Shown: piece after piece, positions 29,387-58,348 of the stretch
Numbering within the stretch: the stretch's first letter is position 1
How the letters are laid out: each line of letters opens with the position of its first letter
Source of the DNA: Alphaproteobacteria bacterium
GTDB lineage: Bacteria > Pseudomonadota > Alphaproteobacteria > UBA8366 > Aestuariispiraceae
Direction: 5' to 3'
NCBI GenBank assembly: GCA_030065235.1
Contig: JASJDC010000002.1
Location: 272,001-336,000, forward strand
DNA: 64,000 nucleotides
Program-made: the position numbers and the translations under genes
The notes under the pieces: generated by a model
Seen by the model: the letters and a program-made list of their open reading frames with translations, nothing else
Told to the model about the DNA's origin: nothing
Databases searched by the model: none

Positions 29387-30646
29387 ATGACCCATTATTC
29401 GGTATGGAGCCTGATCAAGGGCGGCCTGACCGGCCAGAAGAACTGGACGCGCGCCTGGCGCGATCCGGAACCGAAATCCAGCTATGACGTGATCATCATC
29501 GGCGGCGGCGGCCATGGCCTCGCGACCGCTCATTATCTCGCCAAGCTGCATGGCGTCACCAATGTCGCGGTGCTGGAAAAAGGCTGGCTGGGCGGGGGCA
29601 ATGTCGGGCGGAACACCACGATCGTGCGCTCGAACTATCTGCTCGACGCCAATGCGCATTTCTATGAGCACAGCCTGAAGCTGTGGGAAGGTCTTTCGGA
29701 CGACCTGAACTACAACGTCATGTTTTCGCAGCGCGCGGTGATCAACCTCGCCCATTCCAAACCGCAACTGGATGGGTTCGCCCGGCGCGGCAACGCCATG
29801 CTGCTGAACGGCATCGACGCGGAACTGTTGGATCGCGACGGCGTGCAGGCGATGGTGCCCTATTTCGACTATTCCGAGAGCGCCCGCTTCCCGATCTATG
29901 GCGGTCTGATGCAGCGGCGCGGCGGCAGCGCCCGGCATGACGCGGTCGCCTGGGGCTACGCCCGGTCGGCTGATGCGCGCGGCGTCGATCTGATCCAGAA
30001 TTGCGAAGTCACCGGCTTCCGCATCGAGGACGGTCGGGTGCTGGGCGTCGAGACCACACGCGGCTTCATCGGCGCACAGAAGGTCGGCATGGCGGTCGCC
30101 GGCCATACCAGCCATGTCGCGGCGATGGCGGGGCTGAACCGACTGCCTATCGAGAGCCACAAATTGCAGGCGATGGTGTCGGAAGGGCTGAAGCCCCTGA
30201 TCAACCAAGTCTATACGTTCGGCGCCGGCCATTTCTATATCAGCCAGTCCGACAAGGGCGGGCTGGTCTATGGCGGCGATCTCGACGGCTATAACTCCTA
30301 CGCCCAGCGCGGCAACTACCCGCTGATCGAGCATGTGCACGCAGCAGGCATGGCCCTGATGCCGTCCCTGGGCCGTCTGCGCCTGACCCGGCATTGGGCC
30401 GGCGTCATGGATATGTCGATGGATGGCAGCCCGATCATCGGCATGACGCCGATCGAGGGGCTCTATCTCAACGCCGGCTGGTGTTATGGCGGCTTCAAGG
30501 CGACGCCGGCGTCGGGCTGGTGCTTCGCCCATACGATTGCGCAGAATCGGCCGCACGCGCTGAACGAAGCCTTCACGCTCAATCGGTTCGAAACGGGCGC
30601 GCAAATCGACGAGCGCGGCGCCGGCCCGATCCCCGGCGCGCATTAG
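29387..30646 (+). CDS. soxB: Sarcosine oxidase beta subunit
   Basis: A 419-aa FAD/FMN subunit of heterotetrameric sarcosine oxidase, which oxidises sarcosine to glycine with transfer of the methyl as methylene-THF and H2O2 formation. The FAD motif is GGGGHG at 39-44. RNTTIVRSNY follows, and His184 (SARHDAVAWG) is in the place of the covalent-FMN histidine. It is first in soxBDAG, with intergenic spacing of 9 bp to soxD. Confidence 0.95.
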   Translation: MTHYSVWSLIKGGLTGQKNWTRAWRDPEPKSSYDVIIIGGGGHGLATAHYLAKLHGVTNVAVLEKGWLGGGNVGRNTTIVRSNYLLDANAHFYEHSLKLWEGLSDDLNYNVMFSQRAVINLAHSKPQLDGFARRGNAMLLNGIDAELLDRDGVQAMVPYFDYSESARFPIYGGLMQRRGGSARHDAVAWGYARSADARGVDLIQNCEVTGFRIEDGRVLGVETTRGFIGAQKVGMAVAGHTSHVAAMAGLNRLPIESHKLQAMVSEGLKPLINQVYTFGAGHFYISQSDKGGLVYGGDLDGYNSYAQRGNYPLIEHVHAAGMALMPSLGRLRLTRHWAGVMDMSMDGSPIIGMTPIEGLYLNAGWCYGGFKATPASGWCFAHTIAQNRPHALNEAFTLNRFETGAQIDERGAGPIPGAH

Positions 30647-30655
30647 GAGGGCGGC

Positions 30656-30952
30656 GTGTTCATCATCAAATGCCCTTATTGCGGCGAACGCGACGTGACC
30701 GAATTCAGCTATGGCGGCGACGCGACCAGAGCCTATCCGCAAGATCCGGCGCAGGCGACGCCGGAAGACTGGCATGCCTATGTCTATGAGCGGGACAATC
30801 CGCGCGGCTGGCATGTCGAATGGTGGCAGCATAGTCAGGGTTGCCGGCAATGGCTGAAACTGCGCCGCAACACGCTGACCCATGAGCTGGGCCGGACCGC
30901 CCTGCCGCATGAGCCGCTATCGCCGGACGATGATGAAGGGTCGGACGCATGA
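30656..30952 (+). CDS. soxD: Sarcosine oxidase delta subunit
   Basis: A 98-aa zinc-binding small subunit. The zinc ligands are Cys6 and Cys9 (CPYCGERDVTEFSYGGDA), His59 and Cys63 (QHSQGCRQW). A GTG start at 30656 follows AGGAGGG. The stop overlaps the soxA ATG (ATGA). Confidence 0.95.
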   Translation: MFIIKCPYCGERDVTEFSYGGDATRAYPQDPAQATPEDWHAYVYERDNPRGWHVEWWQHSQGCRQWLKLRRNTLTHELGRTALPHEPLSPDDDEGSDA

Positions 30953-33936
30953 TCGGGGATCAATTGCGCCGGCATCCAACGCTCGGGGGCGCGCTAGACC
31001 GCTCGAAAGCGCTGCGGTTCAGCTTCGACGGCCAGCGCTATTCCGGCTTCCAGGGCGACACGCTGGCCTCGGCCTTGTTGGCCAATGGCGTCACCTTGCT
31101 CGGCCGCAGCTTCAAATATCACCGGCCGCGCGGGGTGATGTCGATCGGGTCGGAGGAAAGCAACGCGCTGGCGGAGCTGCGGACGGGGGCGCGCCGCGAA
31201 CCGAACACGCGCATGACCCAGATCGAGCTGTTCCAGGGACTGGAGGCGCAGAGCCAGAATCGCTGGCCCAGCCTGAACCTCGATCTACTCTCGATCAACG
31301 GTCTGGTCGCACCCTTCCTGGCCGCCGGCTTCTACTACAAGACCTTCATGCGGCCGCGCGGCTTCTGGGAGAAGTACGAGTATTTCATCCGTCGCGCCGC
31401 CGGGCTGGGACGCGCGTCGGGCGAGGCGGACCCGGACCGCTATGAGCGCATCCATCGGCATTGCGATATTCTGGTCACCGGCGCCGGCGCAGCCGGGCTG
31501 GCGGCGGCCAAAAGCGCCATGCAGGCGGGCGCGCGGGTCGCGATCCTGGACGAACGGGAGGCGCCGGGCGGCTGGCTGCGCTTCGACCGGAACTTGATCG
31601 AGGGCGCGCCGGCGACGGTCTGGCTGGACGAAACGGTCGCGGCCCTGCGCGCGGCGGACAATGTCACCTTCCTGACCCGAACGACCGCCTTCGGCTATTA
31701 CGACCACAATTTGATCACCGCGGTCGAGCGGGTTCAGGATCATCGCGCCGTCCCCGACCCGCACAAGCCGCGGCAGCGAATCTGGACCTTCCGCGCCAAA
31801 CAAGTGATCCTTGCAACCGGCGCCGTCGAGCAGCCCTTGGCATTCGCCGACAATGACCGGCCGGGCGTCATGCTGGCGGGCGCCCTGCGCGGCTATCTCA
31901 ACGCCTACGGCGTGATGGCGGGGCACAAGGCGGTCATATTCAGCAATAACGACCACGCCTATCGCACCGCCCTGGACCTGATCGACGCCGGCGGCGCCAT
32001 TGAGGCGGTGGTCGATGTCCGGCCCAGCCCGGCAGGCGATTTGGTCCGCGCGGTGCGCGACCGGGGCGTGCGCGTCTATACCGACAGCATCGTCAGCCAC
32101 GCGAAAGGCGGCCACGCGCTGCAGGCCTGCGATGTCACCCCGCGCGGCGGCGGCCGGCCGGAGACGATCGAATGCGACGCGCTGGGCATGTCGGGCGGCT
32201 GGAACCCGGCTGTGCATCTGCATTCCCAAACCGGCGCCAAGCTCGACTGGCGGGACGATCCCGGTTGTTTCGTCCCAGCAACCGCGAAATGGCCTTGCGT
32301 CTCGGTCGGGGCCGCGAACGGCGATTTCCAACTGGCGGACTGTCTGGCCAATGGATCGGAGGCCGGCGCCCAGGCCGCCAAAGCCAGCATGGGTGGAACC
32401 ACCGCAACAGCGGTCCCCGGCGTACGGGCCTTTCGCGAAGAGCGCCCCCATCCGATCTGGGAGGTCCCGCTGGGCCCGGACCGGCGGGGCAAGCGTTTCG
32501 TCGATTTCCAGAATGACGTGACGGTCGAGGATGTCGAACTCGCCCATCGCGAAGGATTCGTCTCGGTCGAACATCTGAAGCGCTACACGACCATGGGCAT
32601 GGCGACGGATCAGGGAAAGACCTCGAACATCGCCGGGCTGGCGATCATGGCGCGGCTGCGTGACAAACCGATCCCGGAGGTCGGAACCACCACCTTCCGG
32701 CCGCCCTTCACGCCGGTCTCAATCGGCGCCATCGCCGGGCAGGAGCGCGGTCAACATTTCCAACCGCTGCGCCGCACGTCGATGGACGATTGGCATGCGG
32801 AGAACGGCGCCGTCTTTCAGAATGTCGGCCTCTGGCGCCGACCGCATTACTACCCGCACGCGCAGGAGGATGTGGATGACGCCAGCCGGCGCGAGGTGAC
32901 GGCGACGCGCGGGGCGGTCGGCGTCTGCGATGTCACAACTTTGGGAAAGATCGATGTCCAGGGGCCCGACGCGGCGGAATTCCTGAACCGAATCTACGCC
33001 AACGGTTTCGCCAAACTGCCCGTCGGTAAGGCGCGCTATGGATTGATGCTGCGCGAGGACGGCATGGTGTTCGATGACGGAGTCACCAGCCGACTGGGCG
33101 AGACCCGTTACCTGATGACGACCACGACCGGCAACGCCGGCCCGGTGATGGCCAAGCTGGAATTCTACCTGCAGACGGTCTGGCCGGAACTGCGCGTCCG
33201 CATCACGAGCGTGACGGAGCAATGGGCCGGGTTCTCCGTCGCCGGACCGAAGGCGCGCGAGGTCCTGCAAGACGTCATCGATATCGACATTTCCGACGGC
33301 GCTTTCCCCTTCATGGCCGCCGCCGAATGCCGCTTCGCCGGCGCGCCGGCCCGGCTGTTCCGGATCAGCTTCTCCGGCGAACGCGCCTATGAAGTCAATG
33401 TCGCCGCCGATCATGGGGCCGAGGCCTGGGCGCTGACCGTCGCCAAGGCGCAGGCGTTGGGCGGCTCCGTCTATGGGCTCGAGTCGCTTGGGACCATGCG
33501 GATCGAAAAGGGCCATGTGGCCGGGACCGAAATCAACGGCCAGACGACGGCGGACGATCTGGGTCTAGGCGGCATGCTGTCCTCGAAGAAGGAATTTATC
33601 GGCAAGGCGATGACAGGCCGGCCCGCCTATCTGGCGCCGGACCGTCAAAAACTGGTCGGTCTGCGCCCGGTGGATGGCGCGACCTGGATCAAAGCGGGCG
33701 CGCAGCTTATCGAAGACGGCGCCGCCGCGCCCCCGGTCCAGATGCTGGGCCATGTCACCGCCGTCGCCTTCAGCCCGGAACTGAACACGCCGATCGCCTT
33801 GGCGCTGCTATCCGGCGGCATGGCGCGCGCCGGCGCGGCGCTGGAGGCGGCCTATCCGCTGACCGGCGAAAGCGTACGGGTGCGGGTCGTCTCGCCGCAT
33901 TTCCTCGATCCGGAAGGGACGCGGATGCATGGCTGA
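30949..33936 (+). CDS. soxA: Sarcosine oxidase alpha subunit
   Basis: A 995-aa subunit of full family length. The N-terminal part is ferredoxin-like (FSFDGQRYSGFQGDTLASALLANG), the central part an NAD/FAD-type domain (DILVTGAGAAGLAAAKSAM near 172, then VILATGAVEQPLAF), and the C-terminal third a GcvT-like THF-binding domain (FQNVGLWRRPHYYP, GVCDVTTLGKIDVQGPDAAEFLNRIYAN). It transfers the C1 unit to THF through an internal channel. It overlaps soxD and soxG by ATGA and 8 bp, showing coupling. Confidence 0.95.
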   Translation: MIGDQLRRHPTLGGALDRSKALRFSFDGQRYSGFQGDTLASALLANGVTLLGRSFKYHRPRGVMSIGSEESNALAELRTGARREPNTRMTQIELFQGLEAQSQNRWPSLNLDLLSINGLVAPFLAAGFYYKTFMRPRGFWEKYEYFIRRAAGLGRASGEADPDRYERIHRHCDILVTGAGAAGLAAAKSAMQAGARVAILDEREAPGGWLRFDRNLIEGAPATVWLDETVAALRAADNVTFLTRTTAFGYYDHNLITAVERVQDHRAVPDPHKPRQRIWTFRAKQVILATGAVEQPLAFADNDRPGVMLAGALRGYLNAYGVMAGHKAVIFSNNDHAYRTALDLIDAGGAIEAVVDVRPSPAGDLVRAVRDRGVRVYTDSIVSHAKGGHALQACDVTPRGGGRPETIECDALGMSGGWNPAVHLHSQTGAKLDWRDDPGCFVPATAKWPCVSVGAANGDFQLADCLANGSEAGAQAAKASMGGTTATAVPGVRAFREERPHPIWEVPLGPDRRGKRFVDFQNDVTVEDVELAHREGFVSVEHLKRYTTMGMATDQGKTSNIAGLAIMARLRDKPIPEVGTTTFRPPFTPVSIGAIAGQERGQHFQPLRRTSMDDWHAENGAVFQNVGLWRRPHYYPHAQEDVDDASRREVTATRGAVGVCDVTTLGKIDVQGPDAAEFLNRIYANGFAKLPVGKARYGLMLREDGMVFDDGVTSRLGETRYLMTTTTGNAGPVMAKLEFYLQTVWPELRVRITSVTEQWAGFSVAGPKAREVLQDVIDIDISDGAFPFMAAAECRFAGAPARLFRISFSGERAYEVNVAADHGAEAWALTVAKAQALGGSVYGLESLGTMRIEKGHVAGTEINGQTTADDLGLGGMLSSKKEFIGKAMTGRPAYLAPDRQKLVGLRPVDGATWIKAGAQLIEDGAAAPPVQMLGHVTAVAFSPELNTPIALALLSGGMARAGAALEAAYPLTGESVRVRVVSPHFLDPEGTRMHG

Positions 33937-50697: not shown

Positions 50698-51387
50698 ATG
50701 GAACGCTACGCCATCTATTATGCGCCGGCGCCGGACAGCGCCTTGGCCCGCTGGGCGGCCGGCTGGATCGGCTGGGATCCGGCCGAGGGCGCGCCTGTCG
50801 ACCGGCAGGATGTCATGGGTCTCGACCGGGATGAGGCGGCGCGTGCAGTCGCATTCCCGCGCCGCTACGGCTTTCACGGCACCCTGAAAGCGCCGTTTCG
50901 GTTGGCGGAAGGACGGTCGGAAGCGGAGTTGCGCGGGGCGTTGCACGCTCTGGCTAAAAAACGCCGGCCGGCCGTCGCCGGGCCCCTGAAACTCAATCGA
51001 TTGGCGCGATTCCTGGCGCTGACCCCCAGCGGAGAACAGGACGCAATCGCCGCATTGGCGGAAGCCTGCGTCACCGAGTTGGATGGATTCCGGTCGCCGC
51101 TGACGCCGGAGGACTTGGCGCGCCGGCGCAAGGCCGATCTCTCACCGCGCCAAGACACGCTTCTGGAACGCTGGGGCTATCCGTATGTGCTGGACCAGTT
51201 CCGGTTTCATTTAACCCTGACCGGGCCGCTGGATGTGGACGCGCTGGACCGGCTTGAACGGGTGCTAAAGACGGAAACCGCGCCTTTCAGCGCCCAACCC
51301 TTCAGCATCGAGTCGCTGTGTCTGTTCGGCGATCCCGGCGGCGGCCGGTCCTTTCAGGTCCTGGACCGGGTCGCGCTTGGCGCCTGA
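50698..51387 (+). CDS. DUF1045 2H-phosphoesterase-like protein
   Basis: A 229-aa protein with two H-x-T motifs, FHGTLKAPF (His60 region) and FHLTLTGPL (near residue 165), the hallmark of 2H phosphoesterases, which open cyclic phosphates. DUF1045 genes commonly accompany phosphonate (phn) genes. It converges on phnM, 11 bp apart. Because the C-P lyase route passes through a cyclic ribose phosphate opened by PhnP, a DUF1045 protein could supply such an activity; this is inference, and no phnP is seen here. Confidence 0.85.
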   Translation: MERYAIYYAPAPDSALARWAAGWIGWDPAEGAPVDRQDVMGLDRDEAARAVAFPRRYGFHGTLKAPFRLAEGRSEAELRGALHALAKKRRPAVAGPLKLNRLARFLALTPSGEQDAIAALAEACVTELDGFRSPLTPEDLARRRKADLSPRQDTLLERWGYPYVLDQFRFHLTLTGPLDVDALDRLERVLKTETAPFSAQPFSIESLCLFGDPGGGRSFQVLDRVALGA

Positions 51388-51398
51388 TCAGGGCCAGA

Positions 51399-52553
51399 TT
51401 AAGCGATGCGCTCACCGGCGCGCCAGACGCTGCGGATCAGCGGATGATGCGGGGTGTGTTCGACCCGCACGAAATCCGCGCGCTTGCCGACGGCGATCTC
51501 GCCGCGATCGTCGAGCCCGGCGGCGCGGGCCGGGGTCGACGTGACGGTGGCGATCGCCTTGGCGAGATCAAAGCCCGCGACTTCTTCGGCCAGGATCATC
51601 GCGCCATGCAACAGGCTGATCGGCGCGTAATCGCTGGAAATCACATCCAGATAGCCATGCTCTGCCAGATCGCGCGCCGAGACATTCCCGGAATGCGACC
51701 CGCCGCGCACCAGATTGGGCCCGCCCATCATCACCGCCAAGCCGTTCTCGTGCGACGCGCGGGCCGCCGCGACCGTGGTCGGAAACTCGGCGATCGTCAT
51801 GCCGTCTGCGACCGCCTCCGATACATGATCCGGCGATGCGTCATCGTGGCTGGCGAGACGGACGGCGCGCGCCCGGGCCTGTTCGACCACCCAGGCGCGG
51901 TTTTCCACGGAATAGGCCTCCCGATCCTTTACGCGCCCTTCGATGAAGCGGTCGATCTCGGCGTCGCTCAGATTCAGTTTGTTCTGATAGTAGCGCCGAT
52001 AATGGTCGAGCTTTACGAACTGTCGCTGTCCGGGCGAATGGTCCATCACGGACATCAGTTTCAACGACGGCGCGTCGAGCAACGGCTCCAACAGCGCGCG
52101 CATGTCTTGGACCGACACCTCGCAGCGCAGGTGGAGGATATGATCCGCTTTGGTCAAGCCGCGATCCCGCGTCTCGTCGAGCGCCGCCACCGCGTCCTCT
52201 AGATGATCCCGGCGTTGGCCCGCTTGATCGATATCGCCGACGGCGATGGCGTCGAACACCGTCGTGATGCCGGAGGCGACGACCTGGGCGTCATGCGCCA
52301 CCACCGCCGCAACCGCCGGCCAACGCGCACCAGGCCGCGGCGCCAAGTGGCGCTCTAGATTGTCGGTATGCAACTCCACGAGACCCGGAACGAGAAGATC
52401 GCCATGGCAATCGACACGGCTGTCGGTCGAGCCGCTCTGCTCGAGCGGGGCGTCGAGGATCTCGGCGATCCAGCCGTCGCGCACCAATACGGCGCCGAGA
52501 AAGTCCGTCTCGGCGGTCACAACCCGCGCGTTATTGAGAACAAGTTCCGTCAT
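51399..52553 (-). CDS. phnM: Alpha-D-ribose 1-methylphosphonate 5-triphosphate diphosphatase
   Basis: A 384-aa amidohydrolase that removes pyrophosphate from ribose-phosphonate triphosphate before C-P lyase. The metal motif LVELHTDNLERHLAPRPGARWP, the ITTVFDAIAVGD strand, HDDASPDHV and HTPHHPLIRSVWRAG are PhnM-typical. The ATG at 52553 matches family length (E. coli about 378 aa); an ATG three codons earlier is possible. No phnGHIJKL lies in the window, so the rest of the pathway must be elsewhere or absent. Confidence 0.93.
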   Translation of the reverse strand: MTELVLNNARVVTAETDFLGAVLVRDGWIAEILDAPLEQSGSTDSRVDCHGDLLVPGLVELHTDNLERHLAPRPGARWPAVAAVVAHDAQVVASGITTVFDAIAVGDIDQAGQRRDHLEDAVAALDETRDRGLTKADHILHLRCEVSVQDMRALLEPLLDAPSLKLMSVMDHSPGQRQFVKLDHYRRYYQNKLNLSDAEIDRFIEGRVKDREAYSVENRAWVVEQARARAVRLASHDDASPDHVSEAVADGMTIAEFPTTVAAARASHENGLAVMMGGPNLVRGGSHSGNVSARDLAEHGYLDVISSDYAPISLLHGAMILAEEVAGFDLAKAIATVTSTPARAAGLDDRGEIAVGKRADFVRVEHTPHHPLIRSVWRAGERIA

Positions 52554-52750
52554 CGAGGACATCCCAAAACTCGGCTGCGGTCCATGCGGCCGCGCCGGTC
52601 CTAAAACTAGGTTCCGGTGCTGCGCGTCAAGGGCGGCGACGCTGTCTCCGTCCGACCCGATCGCGCGATCAGCAATTTGTGACATGCCAAATCCAGCCAT
52701 CGAGGTCACTATTCGACCGCGCCGTGCAGCGAACAGGGGAGCGCCGGATT

Positions 52751-53311
52751 ATGATCAGGACAGTTGCAGCGCCTTGGCGGACGGTCATCGTCACGGCCGC
52801 CCTGCTGGCCCTCGGCGCGCTTGTCGCCGAAACCCGGGCCGAAGCGCCGCGCGAGCGGATGACGGTCGAGCGCCTGAACACGCTCATTTTGGCGGTCGAC
52901 GAGAACGCGACGAAACTGCGCGAGCATCAATGGGTGTTGACGGTTTCGGACCTGGCCCTGGTCGTGATCGCCGACCCAGCCAATGATCGAATGCGCATCC
53001 TGTCTCATGTCGTCAGTGCGGATCAGGCGTCGCCGGAACTGCTGATCCGGATTATGCAGGCGAATTTCGACACCGCCCTCGACGCGCGCTACGCGATCGC
53101 CCAAGGCGTGATTTGGAGCGCCTACATTCACCCGTTGGGTTCGCTCGAGGATGATCAGTTTCTGTCCGGCGTTGGGCAGACCGCCAATCTGGTGCGGACC
53201 TTCGGCGAAACCTTCTATTCGGGCGCGATGACCTTTCGCGGCGGCGACAGCCAAGGCCTCATCGAACGCCAGCTGATCGAGGAACTTCTGCTCAAGGGCG
53301 AACGGATCTGA
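52751..53311 (+). CDS. Exported protein of unknown function
   Basis: A 186-aa protein with a signal peptide (TVIVTAALLALGALVAETRAEA). The mature part begins with a helix (MTVERLNTLILAVDENATKLREHQWVLTV) and resembles type III chaperone-like folds (alpha/beta, LIRIMQANFDTALDARYAI), ending in GGDSQGLIERQLIEELLLKGE. A GGGGAG site precedes the ATG. It diverges from phnM and precedes a TauE/SafE exporter. I do not recognise a characterised relative. Confidence 0.75.
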   Translation: MIRTVAAPWRTVIVTAALLALGALVAETRAEAPRERMTVERLNTLILAVDENATKLREHQWVLTVSDLALVVIADPANDRMRILSHVVSADQASPELLIRIMQANFDTALDARYAIAQGVIWSAYIHPLGSLEDDQFLSGVGQTANLVRTFGETFYSGAMTFRGGDSQGLIERQLIEELLLKGERI

Positions 53312-54259: not shown

Positions 54260-54596
54260 TCCGCCCCCTCTCATCCAGTTCTTTCGAACCAGCTCTTGAC
54301 GCATCCGTCGCCACGCTCGCGGGCGCGAAAAGTCCAAAAAACGCTTATTTTCGAGCGAAATACGGGAAATCGGGTGAAAACCGGAATAACCCTATACCGC
54401 GCGCGGTTCCCATAGGGGCGGTTTTCTGGTTAATATCATCTGTTAGCTATTCTCTACAGTGACGGCTGTCCATTTTCGTGGGACGCCGGGCCGGGGGGCT
54501 CGACTGTAGCGAACAGAGCTTCAGGCGGAACCATCGAGGCCGCCTTGGTATTGCGGCTTCTTTGAAAACGTCATCGCGAAAGTGGAAAGGGTCGTC
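54260..54596. other. Intergenic region upstream of the unknown two-gene operon
   Basis: No gene is supported. It includes an AT-rich stretch (54320-54470) that probably carries the promoter, and a nested dyad at 54390-54417. Confidence 0.5.
54390..54417. repeat. Nested dyad, possible operator or hairpin
   Basis: CCCTAT...ATAGGG arms enclose the perfect palindrome ACCGCGCGCGGT and a TCCC spacer. It lies about 180 bp upstream of the operon start. No T-run follows, so it is not a terminator of TauE. Confidence 0.5.
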
Positions 54597-56357
54597 GTGA
54601 ACGTCGTCGCCCTGAACATCGACGCCAACGAGCATGAGCATTTGCGGCCGCCGGCCCAGGTGATGCGCATGGCGCGGCTCAGCGCCAGCCATCCGACGCG
54701 GCTGAGCTTCATGCGCGGCTTGGTGCGCCGGATGCACGCCGAGCAGTGGAATACGCGTCTGGACCGATTCGAGCTGGACGCGGACGGCGTCGGCTGCGCG
54801 GTCTATGTGGTCGAATCGCCGACCAGCGATGTTTCGCTTGTCTGTTTCAGTCACAACACGAAACCGCGCGCCGGCGGGGCGACGCGTCCGACCCCGATGC
54901 GGCAGGACGAGTTCCGCGGCAAATGGGACGCGACATTCCTGCTATTCGACGGCGTGCCTGACGAGGACGACCTGGTTCGGCTGCGTCGAAACGTGCCGCT
55001 GCAGGAGGCCGGTCGTTATTGTCCCAACGATATTGTCCTGACCCGCGGGCTGTTCAGCGCCGAGCGGATCGGCGCCGTCGTCTCGGACTTGGCGGGAGGC
55101 GCCCAGCCCAGCGCCGCCGCGATCCAGGATGCGGGTTTCTTTATGGAGACCTTCGCGCTCTTCGGGAACGGCAAGTTCGGACTGGCCGAGTTTGATCGGA
55201 TTTCTCGCATCCCCGGCTTTTTCGCGCCCTTCCAGGCGGAAATGCTGACGCTCTATGTGATCCGGGAATTCACGCTGGATCTGATCGACCATCTGGCGAA
55301 AGCCGAAGGCGGCGCGCAGGCCGCCACGCTGGCTGCAGGCCATCGGCGCGCGCTGGGGATCGGCAATGTCACCGACGCCGGCATGGCCCCCTTCCTGGTT
55401 CGGCATCCGGTCCTGGTGCACCATTGGGTCGTGGCGCGGGAGCGCGCGTTGGCCCGGGTCCGCGCGGCCAAGGTCGCGAGCGAGCGGCAAGCGAACGCCT
55501 TTATGCGCATCCTGGCGCGGGCGGTCCAATACGCCGCTAGTTGGGGCCCCGACCGGATCGCCAGCGCGCAGCAACTGACGCTGTCCCGAGAGCTCGCCTC
55601 TTTTCAAGCGGCGCTCTCCGCCGACAAGGACTGGTGGCGGCGCGACACGCCTTGGGCGCGGCTGATGGATCAGGCCGAGGGGGCGGGGTCAATCGACTTT
55701 CAGGAGATGATCAACAGTCTGGTGCTGGAGCCGCAACGCGCGCTTGTCGACCCGCTGTTCGAGAACCTGTGCGCCGACGAGAACTTCCGTATTGATCCGC
55801 TAATGCCGTTGTCGGCGCTGCTCGACCTGATCGATCGGTTCTACGGCTGGGCTCTGTCGATCGATTTTTCCGACCCGCAATCGGAAGGCAAGGCTTGGCG
55901 GGCGCGCGACGGCTTTCTCGGATTCACCGTGTCAGAGCGTCGCGACGCGCCGCTGCGGCCGTTCGACGCCGAGCCGGTTGATGCGCGCCTCGGCGTCGCC
56001 CGCGACGTCGTCCGGCTAAGAACCGCGCTGCGGAATGAAAGCCGCGACGCGTTGTTGAACGACCGGGTCGGCGCTTTCCTCAGACGCCGCCCGGAATGCC
56101 GCGCGGCCGTGAAGCGCGTGCAGATTTGCGCGAAATATCCCTATGGCGAGTTGCGGGAGAATGTCCTGCAGGGCGACATGGCGCCGAGCGACCTGTTGCG
56201 CTTCACCCTGGCTTTCCTGGGGGCCGATCATATTAGGGCGGAGAATGAGGATGTGGTGTTGAGTTCGCTCTATCAGGGCGCGCCGACCGCGTCAGAGATC
56301 GCGGCGGTCGACCCGGACGCCTGGGCCTTTTCCGCCGGCGTAACGGCGGCGGCTTAG
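54597..56357 (+). CDS. Conserved protein of unknown function (large)
   Basis: A 586-aa soluble protein with no signal peptide or TM segment. The start is probably the GTG at 54597 (GGAAAGGG five bases upstream); 54582 is an alternative. It has recurrent helical stretches (RMARLSASHPTRLSFMRGLVRRM, AEMLTLYVIREFTLDLIDHLAKAEGG, KVASERQANAFMRILARAVQYAASWG). It includes the Asp-rich segment GVPDEDDLVRLRRNVPLQEAGRYCPNDIVLTRGLFSAERIG. Only three or four cysteines occur, so it is not a Fe-S protein. I recognise no family. A DUF3726 gene follows 51 bp downstream, in an operon. Confidence 0.7.
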   Translation: MNVVALNIDANEHEHLRPPAQVMRMARLSASHPTRLSFMRGLVRRMHAEQWNTRLDRFELDADGVGCAVYVVESPTSDVSLVCFSHNTKPRAGGATRPTPMRQDEFRGKWDATFLLFDGVPDEDDLVRLRRNVPLQEAGRYCPNDIVLTRGLFSAERIGAVVSDLAGGAQPSAAAIQDAGFFMETFALFGNGKFGLAEFDRISRIPGFFAPFQAEMLTLYVIREFTLDLIDHLAKAEGGAQAATLAAGHRRALGIGNVTDAGMAPFLVRHPVLVHHWVVARERALARVRAAKVASERQANAFMRILARAVQYAASWGPDRIASAQQLTLSRELASFQAALSADKDWWRRDTPWARLMDQAEGAGSIDFQEMINSLVLEPQRALVDPLFENLCADENFRIDPLMPLSALLDLIDRFYGWALSIDFSDPQSEGKAWRARDGFLGFTVSERRDAPLRPFDAEPVDARLGVARDVVRLRTALRNESRDALLNDRVGAFLRRRPECRAAVKRVQICAKYPYGELRENVLQGDMAPSDLLRFTLAFLGADHIRAENEDVVLSSLYQGAPTASEIAAVDPDAWAFSAGVTAAA

Positions 56358-56408
56358 CGCGATGCCACGCCTGGACAGAGACAATGAGAAGAACAAAGAC
56401 GTGTAGGT

Positions 56409-57119
56409 ATGGACGCATCGCTTAGCACTCAGACGCCCGCCATCAACCGTTCTGTGGCGGAAATCCGCAACTTGATCACCCGCGCCGGCCGGCGCGCCGA
56501 CCTGCCAAGCGGCGAGGAAGACGAGGCGGCCAGGGCGGTCGAATGGCTTGAGAAGCGCGGCTATCCCGGCCTGTCGCTGGCTGTGGACGCGCTGTTCGAC
56601 GAAGGACGCGGCGGCGCGCCGGGTCGGAGCGTTGAAGCCGACGGGCACGCGTTGCTGCAGGGCCCCGGCATCTTCGAAGAACTGTTGGAGGCGCAAGACC
56701 GGCGACCCGGCGCGCCCAGCGCCTGGACCGGCGTGCTGTTCGGACCGATTGCGCTGATCCCTTTCGCCGCCGAGATCTCCCTGCGCCGGCTGGCGATCCA
56801 TGTTCGATGGGACGCCGATGACGGGCGCGGGCAATCCTTGGCGCTCTGCGCCAGCGGGTCTGTTCGGCTGCGTTATGCGCAAACGGAAGCGCTGATCACC
56901 GGCGCGCCCGCGCGCATCTCGATCATGGCCAGCGATGCGCCGATCGCCGTCCAGGGCTTCGCCGCCGCCAACCATGTGGTCGACGCCTGGGAGTTGGACA
57001 AGCGCGCCGACCATGCGGTGCAGAATGGCGTCACGGTGTCCGAACGCGCCTGGTCGCGGCTCGATAATTTCGCCTCGGGCTATCTGTTCGACACGAGAGA
57101 GCGGGCGGCCGGAGACTGA
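56409..57119 (+). CDS. DUF3726 protein
   Basis: A 236-aa protein with the DUF3726 start: SVAEIRNLITRAGRRADLPSGEEDEAARAVEWLEKRGYPGLSLAVDAL. It is alpha-helical in the first 70 residues and beta-rich later (RRLAIHVRWDADDGRGQSLALCASGSVRLRYAQTEAL). No signal or TM. No function is known. It is the second gene of the operon beginning at 54597 and converges on an aminotransferase. Confidence 0.78.
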   Translation: MDASLSTQTPAINRSVAEIRNLITRAGRRADLPSGEEDEAARAVEWLEKRGYPGLSLAVDALFDEGRGGAPGRSVEADGHALLQGPGIFEELLEAQDRRPGAPSAWTGVLFGPIALIPFAAEISLRRLAIHVRWDADDGRGQSLALCASGSVRLRYAQTEALITGAPARISIMASDAPIAVQGFAAANHVVDAWELDKRADHAVQNGVTVSERAWSRLDNFASGYLFDTRERAAGD

Positions 57120-57163: not shown

Positions 57164-58348
57164 TTACGCGGCCTGGCCCGCATGGCGCGATAAGAAATGG
57201 ACAATCCGTGCGCAGGCCTCCGCCAACACGGCGTCGGGCTGACACAAGGAAATCCGCACCCGGTCTTGCAGAACCGGGCCGAACGCCCCGCCCGGCAACA
57301 CCGAAACCCCTGCCTCGTTCAGCAGCGCCCAGGAGAAACTCTCGCCCGACCAGCTAGTCTCGGAAGTATCGGCCAGGGCGAAAATGCCGGCTTCCGGCTT
57401 GAGGGCGCGCAGGCCCGGCGCCGAGGCGAGCCCCTCGACCAACAGATCGCGCCGACGGCGATACGCCTCTTTCATACACGCGGTGTCGGCGCCGTCGCCG
57501 GTCAGCGCCGCCTCTGCACCAGCCTGCAGAAACGCCGACCCGCCATACTGGATATTGTTCAGAAGGTTCCGCGCATGACCCGCGAACGCCGCCGGGCCGA
57601 CCGCCCAGCCGATCCGCCAACCGCTCATTGCATGAGATTTGGAAAGGCTGCGGATCACCACGCAGCGATCGCCGACGCCCGGCGCCCGCCGCGGCGAATA
57701 GAACGACCGCTCAAAACACAGATCGGCGTAAACTTCATCCGAGATCAGCCAGAGGTCATGCGCGACGCACAGCGCGGCCAGACGCTCGACCGCCGCGCGA
57801 TTCGCGATTGCGCCGCTCGGATTATGCGGCGAATTCAGCAAAATCGCCCGCGTCTTCGGCGTAATCGCCGCGGCGACGGCGTCCGGGTCGAGTGCAAAAC
57901 CGCGATCGGCGTCCAGCGGCGCCAGGATCGGCGTTCCGCCGGCCGCCCGCACGACTCCTTCGAACATGACATAGGGCGGACTGAGCAGGATCACCGCGTC
58001 GTCGGGGTCGAGCAGACAGCGCATCGTCATATAGAGCGCGTTCTGGGCGCCGGCAGTGACGGTGACTTCATCCGGGCTGATTTCCAATCCCAGCCGCTTG
58101 GATTCCGTCTGCGCGATCGCCTTGCGCAGGCCTGCGACCCCGCCCGCGGCTGAATATTTCGTTTGGCCCGACCGCAACGCGTCCACCGCAGCGTCGGCGA
58201 TCGGCGGCGGAGTCGTGAAGTCCGGATCGCCCACACTGAGGATAATCACGTCCTCTCCGCGCCGATGGCGCGCCATAGCCTCGCTATGCACGGCCCAGGC
58301 CGTCGACCCGGACGCCGCGAGATCCTGCAAAAAAGACGCATATCGCAT
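57164..58348 (-). CDS. PLP-dependent aminotransferase, class I/II
   Basis: A 394-aa fold-type I aminotransferase. The PLP lysine is in SLSKSHAMSGWRIGW (near residue 237); NSPHNPSGAI and ISDEVYADL are also canonical, and GGAFGP-RISLCQP at the end carries the substrate Arg. It is probably aspartate/arginine:pyruvate-type. It diverges from the receiver-HPt gene. No pathway partner is evident. Confidence 0.9.
   Translation of the reverse strand: MRYASFLQDLAASGSTAWAVHSEAMARHRRGEDVIILSVGDPDFTTPPPIADAAVDALRSGQTKYSAAGGVAGLRKAIAQTESKRLGLEISPDEVTVTAGAQNALYMTMRCLLDPDDAVILLSPPYVMFEGVVRAAGGTPILAPLDADRGFALDPDAVAAAITPKTRAILLNSPHNPSGAIANRAAVERLAALCVAHDLWLISDEVYADLCFERSFYSPRRAPGVGDRCVVIRSLSKSHAMSGWRIGWAVGPAAFAGHARNLLNNIQYGGSAFLQAGAEAALTGDGADTACMKEAYRRRRDLLVEGLASAPGLRALKPEAGIFALADTSETSWSGESFSWALLNEAGVSVLPGGAFGPVLQDRVRISLCQPDAVLAEACARIVHFLSRHAGQAA

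Follow-up and report, generated by a model that had tools for sequence, protein, structure and literature searches.

A diverged orphan copy of a widespread, probably catabolic gene pair encoding a DUF3726 protein

Judged by its sequence, a two-gene unit in an alphaproteobacterial DNA stretch of 64,000 nucleotides (in the following, the window) is a diverged orphan copy of a widespread and probably catabolic pair, which consists of a member of an unnamed protein family (A) and of a DUF3726 protein (B). The window copies are designated A' and B':

54597..56357, plus strand: gene A', 586 aa, predicted to be soluble; divergent member of the unnamed protein family
56409..57119, plus strand: gene B', 236 aa, DUF3726 (PF12525) protein

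A preliminary description of this DNA had proposed a two-gene unit encoding a soluble 586-aa protein outside recognised families and a DUF3726 protein, and in these respects it was borne out. Both open reading frames lie at the coordinates listed above; for the start of A' at 54597, support comes from genome G292, whose relative likewise opens with MNVV. A' looks soluble, as no 19-residue Kyte-Doolittle window exceeds 1.6; for B', one such window reaches 1.64. No Pfam or NCBIfam family matched A' at E ≤ 1, and comparison with PDB sequences gave chance-level matches only, both for the single sequence (best E 1.1) and for a profile of 37 family A sequences (best E 0.36). Searching these 37 members against Pfam gave 13 families at E ≤ 1 (best 0.0027), each in one to three members; we took these matches as chance. 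B' is a member of PF12525 with 33 bits (E 5.6e-8), which is above the curated gathering cut-off of 22.1, the model spanning only the N-terminal part of the protein (73 positions). It retains 9 of the 14 positions conserved across 34 other B proteins; B of G292 scores 18.3 bits and lies under the cut-off. The genome containing the window (G000) has one A match and one DUF3726 match. Structure prediction (A of locus L031 together with A' of the window, and two B proteins) resulted in models of low confidence with pLDDT values of 35 and 37; the chemistry of A and B discussed below is therefore one that we infer. In the literature searched, the term DUF3726 did not occur and no paper naming the A or B genes was found.

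The unit had also been regarded as a candidate undescribed module. This holds insofar as A belongs to no library family, but the unit is not isolated: a widespread A+DUF3726 pair exists, and its many relatives with their recurrent gene context led us to reject the reading as an isolated new module. The similarity of A' to family A extends over residues 14-578, with E-values down to 1e-123. Family A was detected in 39 of 289 alphaproteobacterial genomes (E ≤ 1e-10; some of the matches are fragments). In the window's order, 14 of 43 genomes have it, and among 72,556 plasmid records 168 do, with Sinorhizobium (64) and Phaeobacter (58) accounting for most of them. One plasmid of Phaeobacter inhibens DSM 17395 bears two A matches. 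A scan of genome contigs gave one locus, and a search of viral contigs found no relatives; for B, a tblastn search of the plasmids gave no match at E ≤ 0.01. The hosts of the canonical cluster described below are roseobacters, alphaproteobacteria with genomes of 1.2-1.4 Mb, rhizobia, and replicons of Vibrio and Caballeronia. A distant branch of A with about 25-27% identity (S. meliloti pSymB, Alloyangia) retains A, a small gene at the position of B, and an M19 gene, and has in addition genes for an ABC transporter and a Rid-family protein; the Alloyangia locus adds an FAD-binding oxidoreductase. The small genes at the B position of this branch gave no DUF3726 match in Pfam. In one small genome, an A relative (G077:C43:1536-2308) is broken by several stop codons.

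For the analysis of gene neighbourhoods, 57 loci were fetched: 37 initially, 11 more from the window's order, and 9 from plasmids. Neighbours were clustered for 38 loci including the window, and direct searches were made in all 57; both approaches agree. The usual place of canonical A is between an M19 'dipeptidase' gene and the DUF3726 gene. M19 is present in 48 of the 57 loci, mostly directly upstream of A, and absent from the fetched stretch in nine. An aldehyde dehydrogenase (ALDH) gene was found in 30 loci (25 at ≥ 50% identity; the remainder may be other ALDHs), Ldh_2 and LysR genes in 19 each, a BCCT transporter in 10 (one at merely 28%), and ProW and ProX in 9 each. Ldh_2 also occurs in 30 of 40 chosen genomes and is thus too common to discriminate. 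By direct BLAST, DUF3726 was recognised in 27 of the 57 loci; because B diverges fast, the position of the reading frame is a better guide, and 31 of 38 loci have an ORF encoding 170-290 aa whose start lies between -60 and +130 bases from the stop of A. The gene order is LysR-ALDH-M19-A-DUF3726 on the Phaeobacter inhibens plasmid and LysR, ALDH-M19-BCCT-A-DUF3726-Ldh in Ruegeria sp. TM1040, where sarcosine-oxidase-type genes are nearby. A Sulfitobacter plasmid provides a further annotated example of this layout, and on a Shinella plasmid the operon includes a ProU transporter. On a plasmid of Mesorhizobium sp. 131-2-1 (L070:8947-11391), A and DUF3726 form a single gene of 814 aa, which argues for joint action of A and B.

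Over their full length, A' and B' are related to the A and DUF3726 proteins of this LysR-ALDH-M19-A-DUF3726-Ldh_2 cluster (e.g. TM1040_RS02315-RS02345 of Ruegeria sp. TM1040), with the same order and strand. The window locus differs from it by lacking ALDH, M19, Ldh_2, and BCCT genes, and A' no longer has 34 of the 102 near-invariant residues. No homolog of ALDH, Ldh_2, or BCCT was found in the 64-kb window at E ≤ 1e-10 over half of the query; three Ldh_2 genes lie elsewhere in the genome. A search for M19 of the A-linked kind gave no match in the window's genome; of the 14 genomes of its taxonomic family, five were positive in this search. A occurs in seven of these 14 genomes, among them all five with M19; the two with A but without M19 are G000 and G292. 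No operon partners adjoin the window pair. The initial statement that the pair has no link to nearby pathways is correct for the window locus but not for the relatives elsewhere, which are strongly linked to a catabolic cluster.

The co-occurrence of A with a close M19 protein was counted per genome; in G057, G034, G163, and G088 the close M19 gene lies off the contig of A. At E ≤ 1e-90, a cut picked after the list had been inspected (the search's own cut was 1e-60), 36 of the 289 genomes contained both genes, three A only, one M19 only, and 249 neither, the counts being uncorrected for kinship. The A-only genomes are the window's own (G000), G064, which is 68% complete, and G122, whose A is of the distant type. 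At 1e-60, M19 was found in 46 genomes, including 37 of the 39 with A (the exceptions are G000 and G064), and nine genomes had M19 without A. Nearly all M19 proteins of 48 loci (e.g. L069, L071, L074) start with ID.L; H151 is conserved in 47 of the 48, H172 and D241 in all 48 (P. inhibens numbering). Classic M19 dipeptidases possess an N-terminal metal-binding HxD. Given ID.L instead of this motif, the A-linked M19 proteins are probably not ordinary dipeptidases. A homolog of the Sox/Mgd alpha subunit (E ≤ 1e-40) was present in 38 of the 39 A-positive versus 79 of the 250 A-negative genomes, again uncorrected for kinship and with a query for which N-methylglutamate dehydrogenase (Mgd) and sarcosine oxidase (Sox) are indistinguishable. 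At least three genomes have it close to A, at a distance of up to about 10 kb (2.5 kb in G161, 6.6 kb in G207, 8.1 kb in G065). In the window, Sox/Mgd-type beta and alpha genes (TIGR01373, TIGR01372; positions 29387-33936), between whose two possible types the query cannot decide, are located about 20 kb upstream of A'. In G057, a close M19 gene and a Sox/Mgd alpha gene are 1.7 kb apart (G057:C4:164764-169606), on a contig other than that of the distant A of this genome.

The canonical pair is characterised by gene linkage, by the fusion of A and B, and by co-occurrence; from these observations, a joint enzyme acting on an N-methylated, betaine-like compound may be deduced. In the reading that we prefer, with confidence and doubt about evenly balanced, A and B would serve in a canonical M19/ALDH/Ldh_2 route for the catabolism of a betaine-like compound, preferably homarine, and A'B' would be a derived offshoot. 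A and B would be either two subunits of one soluble enzyme or an enzyme with a dedicated partner, teaming up with the non-standard amidohydrolase M19; in many genomes, ALDH and the Ldh_2 oxidoreductase would join them. The N-methylated substrate would be imported through BCCT or ProU-type transporters. If it is homarine (N-methylpicolinate), the route would lead to N-methylglutamate and, by a sarcosine-oxidase-like N-methylglutamate dehydrogenase, to glutamate. A and B may then act on the N-heterocycle and aid ring opening, ALDH would oxidise the aldehyde formed, M19 would hydrolyse the resulting N-acyl (formyl) bond, and an enzyme of the Mgd/Sox type would finally take off the N-methyl group. 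The carbon count of homarine fits this scheme, N-methylglutamate having one carbon fewer; if the ring were cut between C5 and C6, ALDH would be supplied with an aldehyde and M19 with an N-formyl group. A'B' would be an intact offshoot of the canonical pair, most likely with an altered substrate or a non-catalytic role. The canonical cluster is possibly identical with a homarine catabolic pathway, of which the window pair lacks the remaining genes; that the cluster matches the homarine catabolic operon homABCDER is our own guess. Participation of Mgd in homarine catabolism is stated in a passage (PMC13390433) that cites the 2026 study by Ferrer-Gonzalez et al. (Nat Microbiol 11:1531). The reports on Ruegeria pomeroyi cut both ways: in one passage, growth with homarine is described as poorer and slower than with trigonelline (PMC8269262), in another a quick drawdown of homarine is reported (PMC12817926).

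It is quite possible, if somewhat doubtful, that the canonical operon degrades a different betaine-like or N-heterocyclic compound (glycine betaine/dimethylglycine, proline betaine, carnitine, or another one), of whose machinery A'B' would still be an offshoot. BCCT and ProU-type transporters are unspecific for homarine, and the distant A branch has a different ABC transporter. Moreover, a passage on Vibrio natriegens and P. aeruginosa describes dgcAB of dimethylglycine catabolism as preceded by two genes, one for a dipeptidase and one hypothetical (PMC12093977). Like the canonical cluster, this pepD-hypothetical-dgcAB cluster combines a dipeptidase with an adjacent hypothetical gene in a setting of betaine catabolism; the likeness is one of description, and the passage names no DUF3726. 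Against such a substrate, dgcAB-like genes are absent from those recurrent neighbours of A that were named. The canonical cluster holds a large protein family that is missing from Pfam and NCBIfam and is tied to DUF3726 and an unusual M19 protein; its reaction, once named, would give function to genes now labelled 'hypothetical' or 'membrane dipeptidase'.

The immediate surroundings of the window pair comprise the following features:

50698-52709, two genes facing each other: phn-operon DUF1045 protein and PhnM, assigned by family search
52742..53311, plus strand: S, 189 aa, hydrophobic N-terminus, no Pfam match; weak link to A'
54260..54596, no strand: AT-rich intergenic stretch upstream of A', containing nested inverted repeats (arms at 54439-54460 and 54503-54517)
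57164..58348, minus strand: class I/II aminotransferase, convergent; a neighbour for which no membership of the unit is claimed

The upstream region had been described as an AT-rich promoter with a nested dyad. The AT-rich stretch (GC 0.47-0.52 in the lowest upstream windows versus about 0.57-0.73 within both genes) and the dyad are present, but the RNA fold is unremarkable (z -1.7; 5 of 100 shuffles were equally stable) and a search upstream of A' found no sigma-70-like promoter; the dyad is thus not supported as a notable element. The window and G292 have four genes in common, S (58% identity), A' (44%), B' (38%), and the convergent aminotransferase (59%). S occurs in 11 of 385 genomes of the class, and as seven of these 11 have no A match, its candidacy as a third member of the unit is weakened.

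The position of the DUF1045 and PhnM genes just upstream of A', together with PhnF-, PhnI-, PhnJ-, and PhnK-like genes adjoining the pair in G292, would agree with a present role of A'B' in organophosphonate use, where the substrate of the pair may be an N-methyl or aminophosphonate-derived product. Note that the phn genes of G292 and G291 were named by eye, those of the window by family search. We consider this role improbable. A close ortholog of the aminotransferase, which adjoins A'B' in G292, is also present in G291, a genome of the same genus, together with phn-like genes and a transporter of the TauE type that shares 76% identity with its counterpart adjoining A' in the window, but there S, A', and B' are missing; phn adjacency may therefore be a mere matter of location. 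In addition, the window pair and the phn genes do not form one transcription unit, and the recurrent neighbours of canonical A included no phn cluster that we recognised. The DUF1045 and PhnM genes of the window sit apart from the main phn genes, which in G292 adjoin the pair.

The extent of divergence was assessed with 45 canonical sequences, across which 102 columns are at least 95% conserved (near-invariant). The divergent sequences of the window, G292, L063, and L098 were removed before these columns were defined; L060, L061, L062, L064, L093, and L099-L101 are outside the alignment, and A of G294 is hence unscored. A' keeps 68 of the 102 columns and A of G292 keeps 69; canonical sequences keep a fraction of 0.89-1.00 in a leave-one-out comparison, and the four scored genomes among the five M19-bearing ones of the taxonomic family keep 98, 101, 102, and 102. 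The 34 columns lost in the window and the 33 lost in G292 have 20 in common (p 8e-5). A bias of the losses towards polar over non-polar residues was not significant (p 0.29 for the window, 0.06 for G292), so we do not claim that catalytic residues were lost specifically. The window and G292 constitute, in a tree of 58 sequences, one clade (SH-aLRT 100) inside a clade of 53 rows (100), and their end branches measure 1.16 and 1.34, the median being 0.53.

With these 34 near-invariant residues and the M19 partner gone, A'B' might be taken for a decaying remnant heading to a pseudogene; this is very unlikely, as two genera preserve both genes unbroken, with identities of 44% for A and 38% for B, and as identity between the window and G292 at codon positions one and two of A (0.61 and 0.64) is far above that at the third (0.40), which indicates constraint on the A protein sequence (for B, the values are 0.50, 0.62, and 0.44). 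Intact frames, protein-level constraint, and the G292 relative likewise make a spurious reading frame unlikely. Because both copies are intact and constrained at the protein level, a repurposed pair is likelier than a pseudogene. In a further-reaching form, which we regard as unlikely, A+DUF3726 would represent a new class of two-subunit enzymes acting on N-methylated N-heterocycles such as homarine and its relatives, and the window's lineage would have repurposed the pair, minus M19, for a new substrate beside C-P lyase genes. The window pair is a natural variant in which many otherwise fixed residues are changed, and may help to separate catalytic from structural residues; many of the losses in A' fall in the motifs RSDRVIA, RANKSVR, MRTTAVYG, EKLEPR, and FDPxSDRW.
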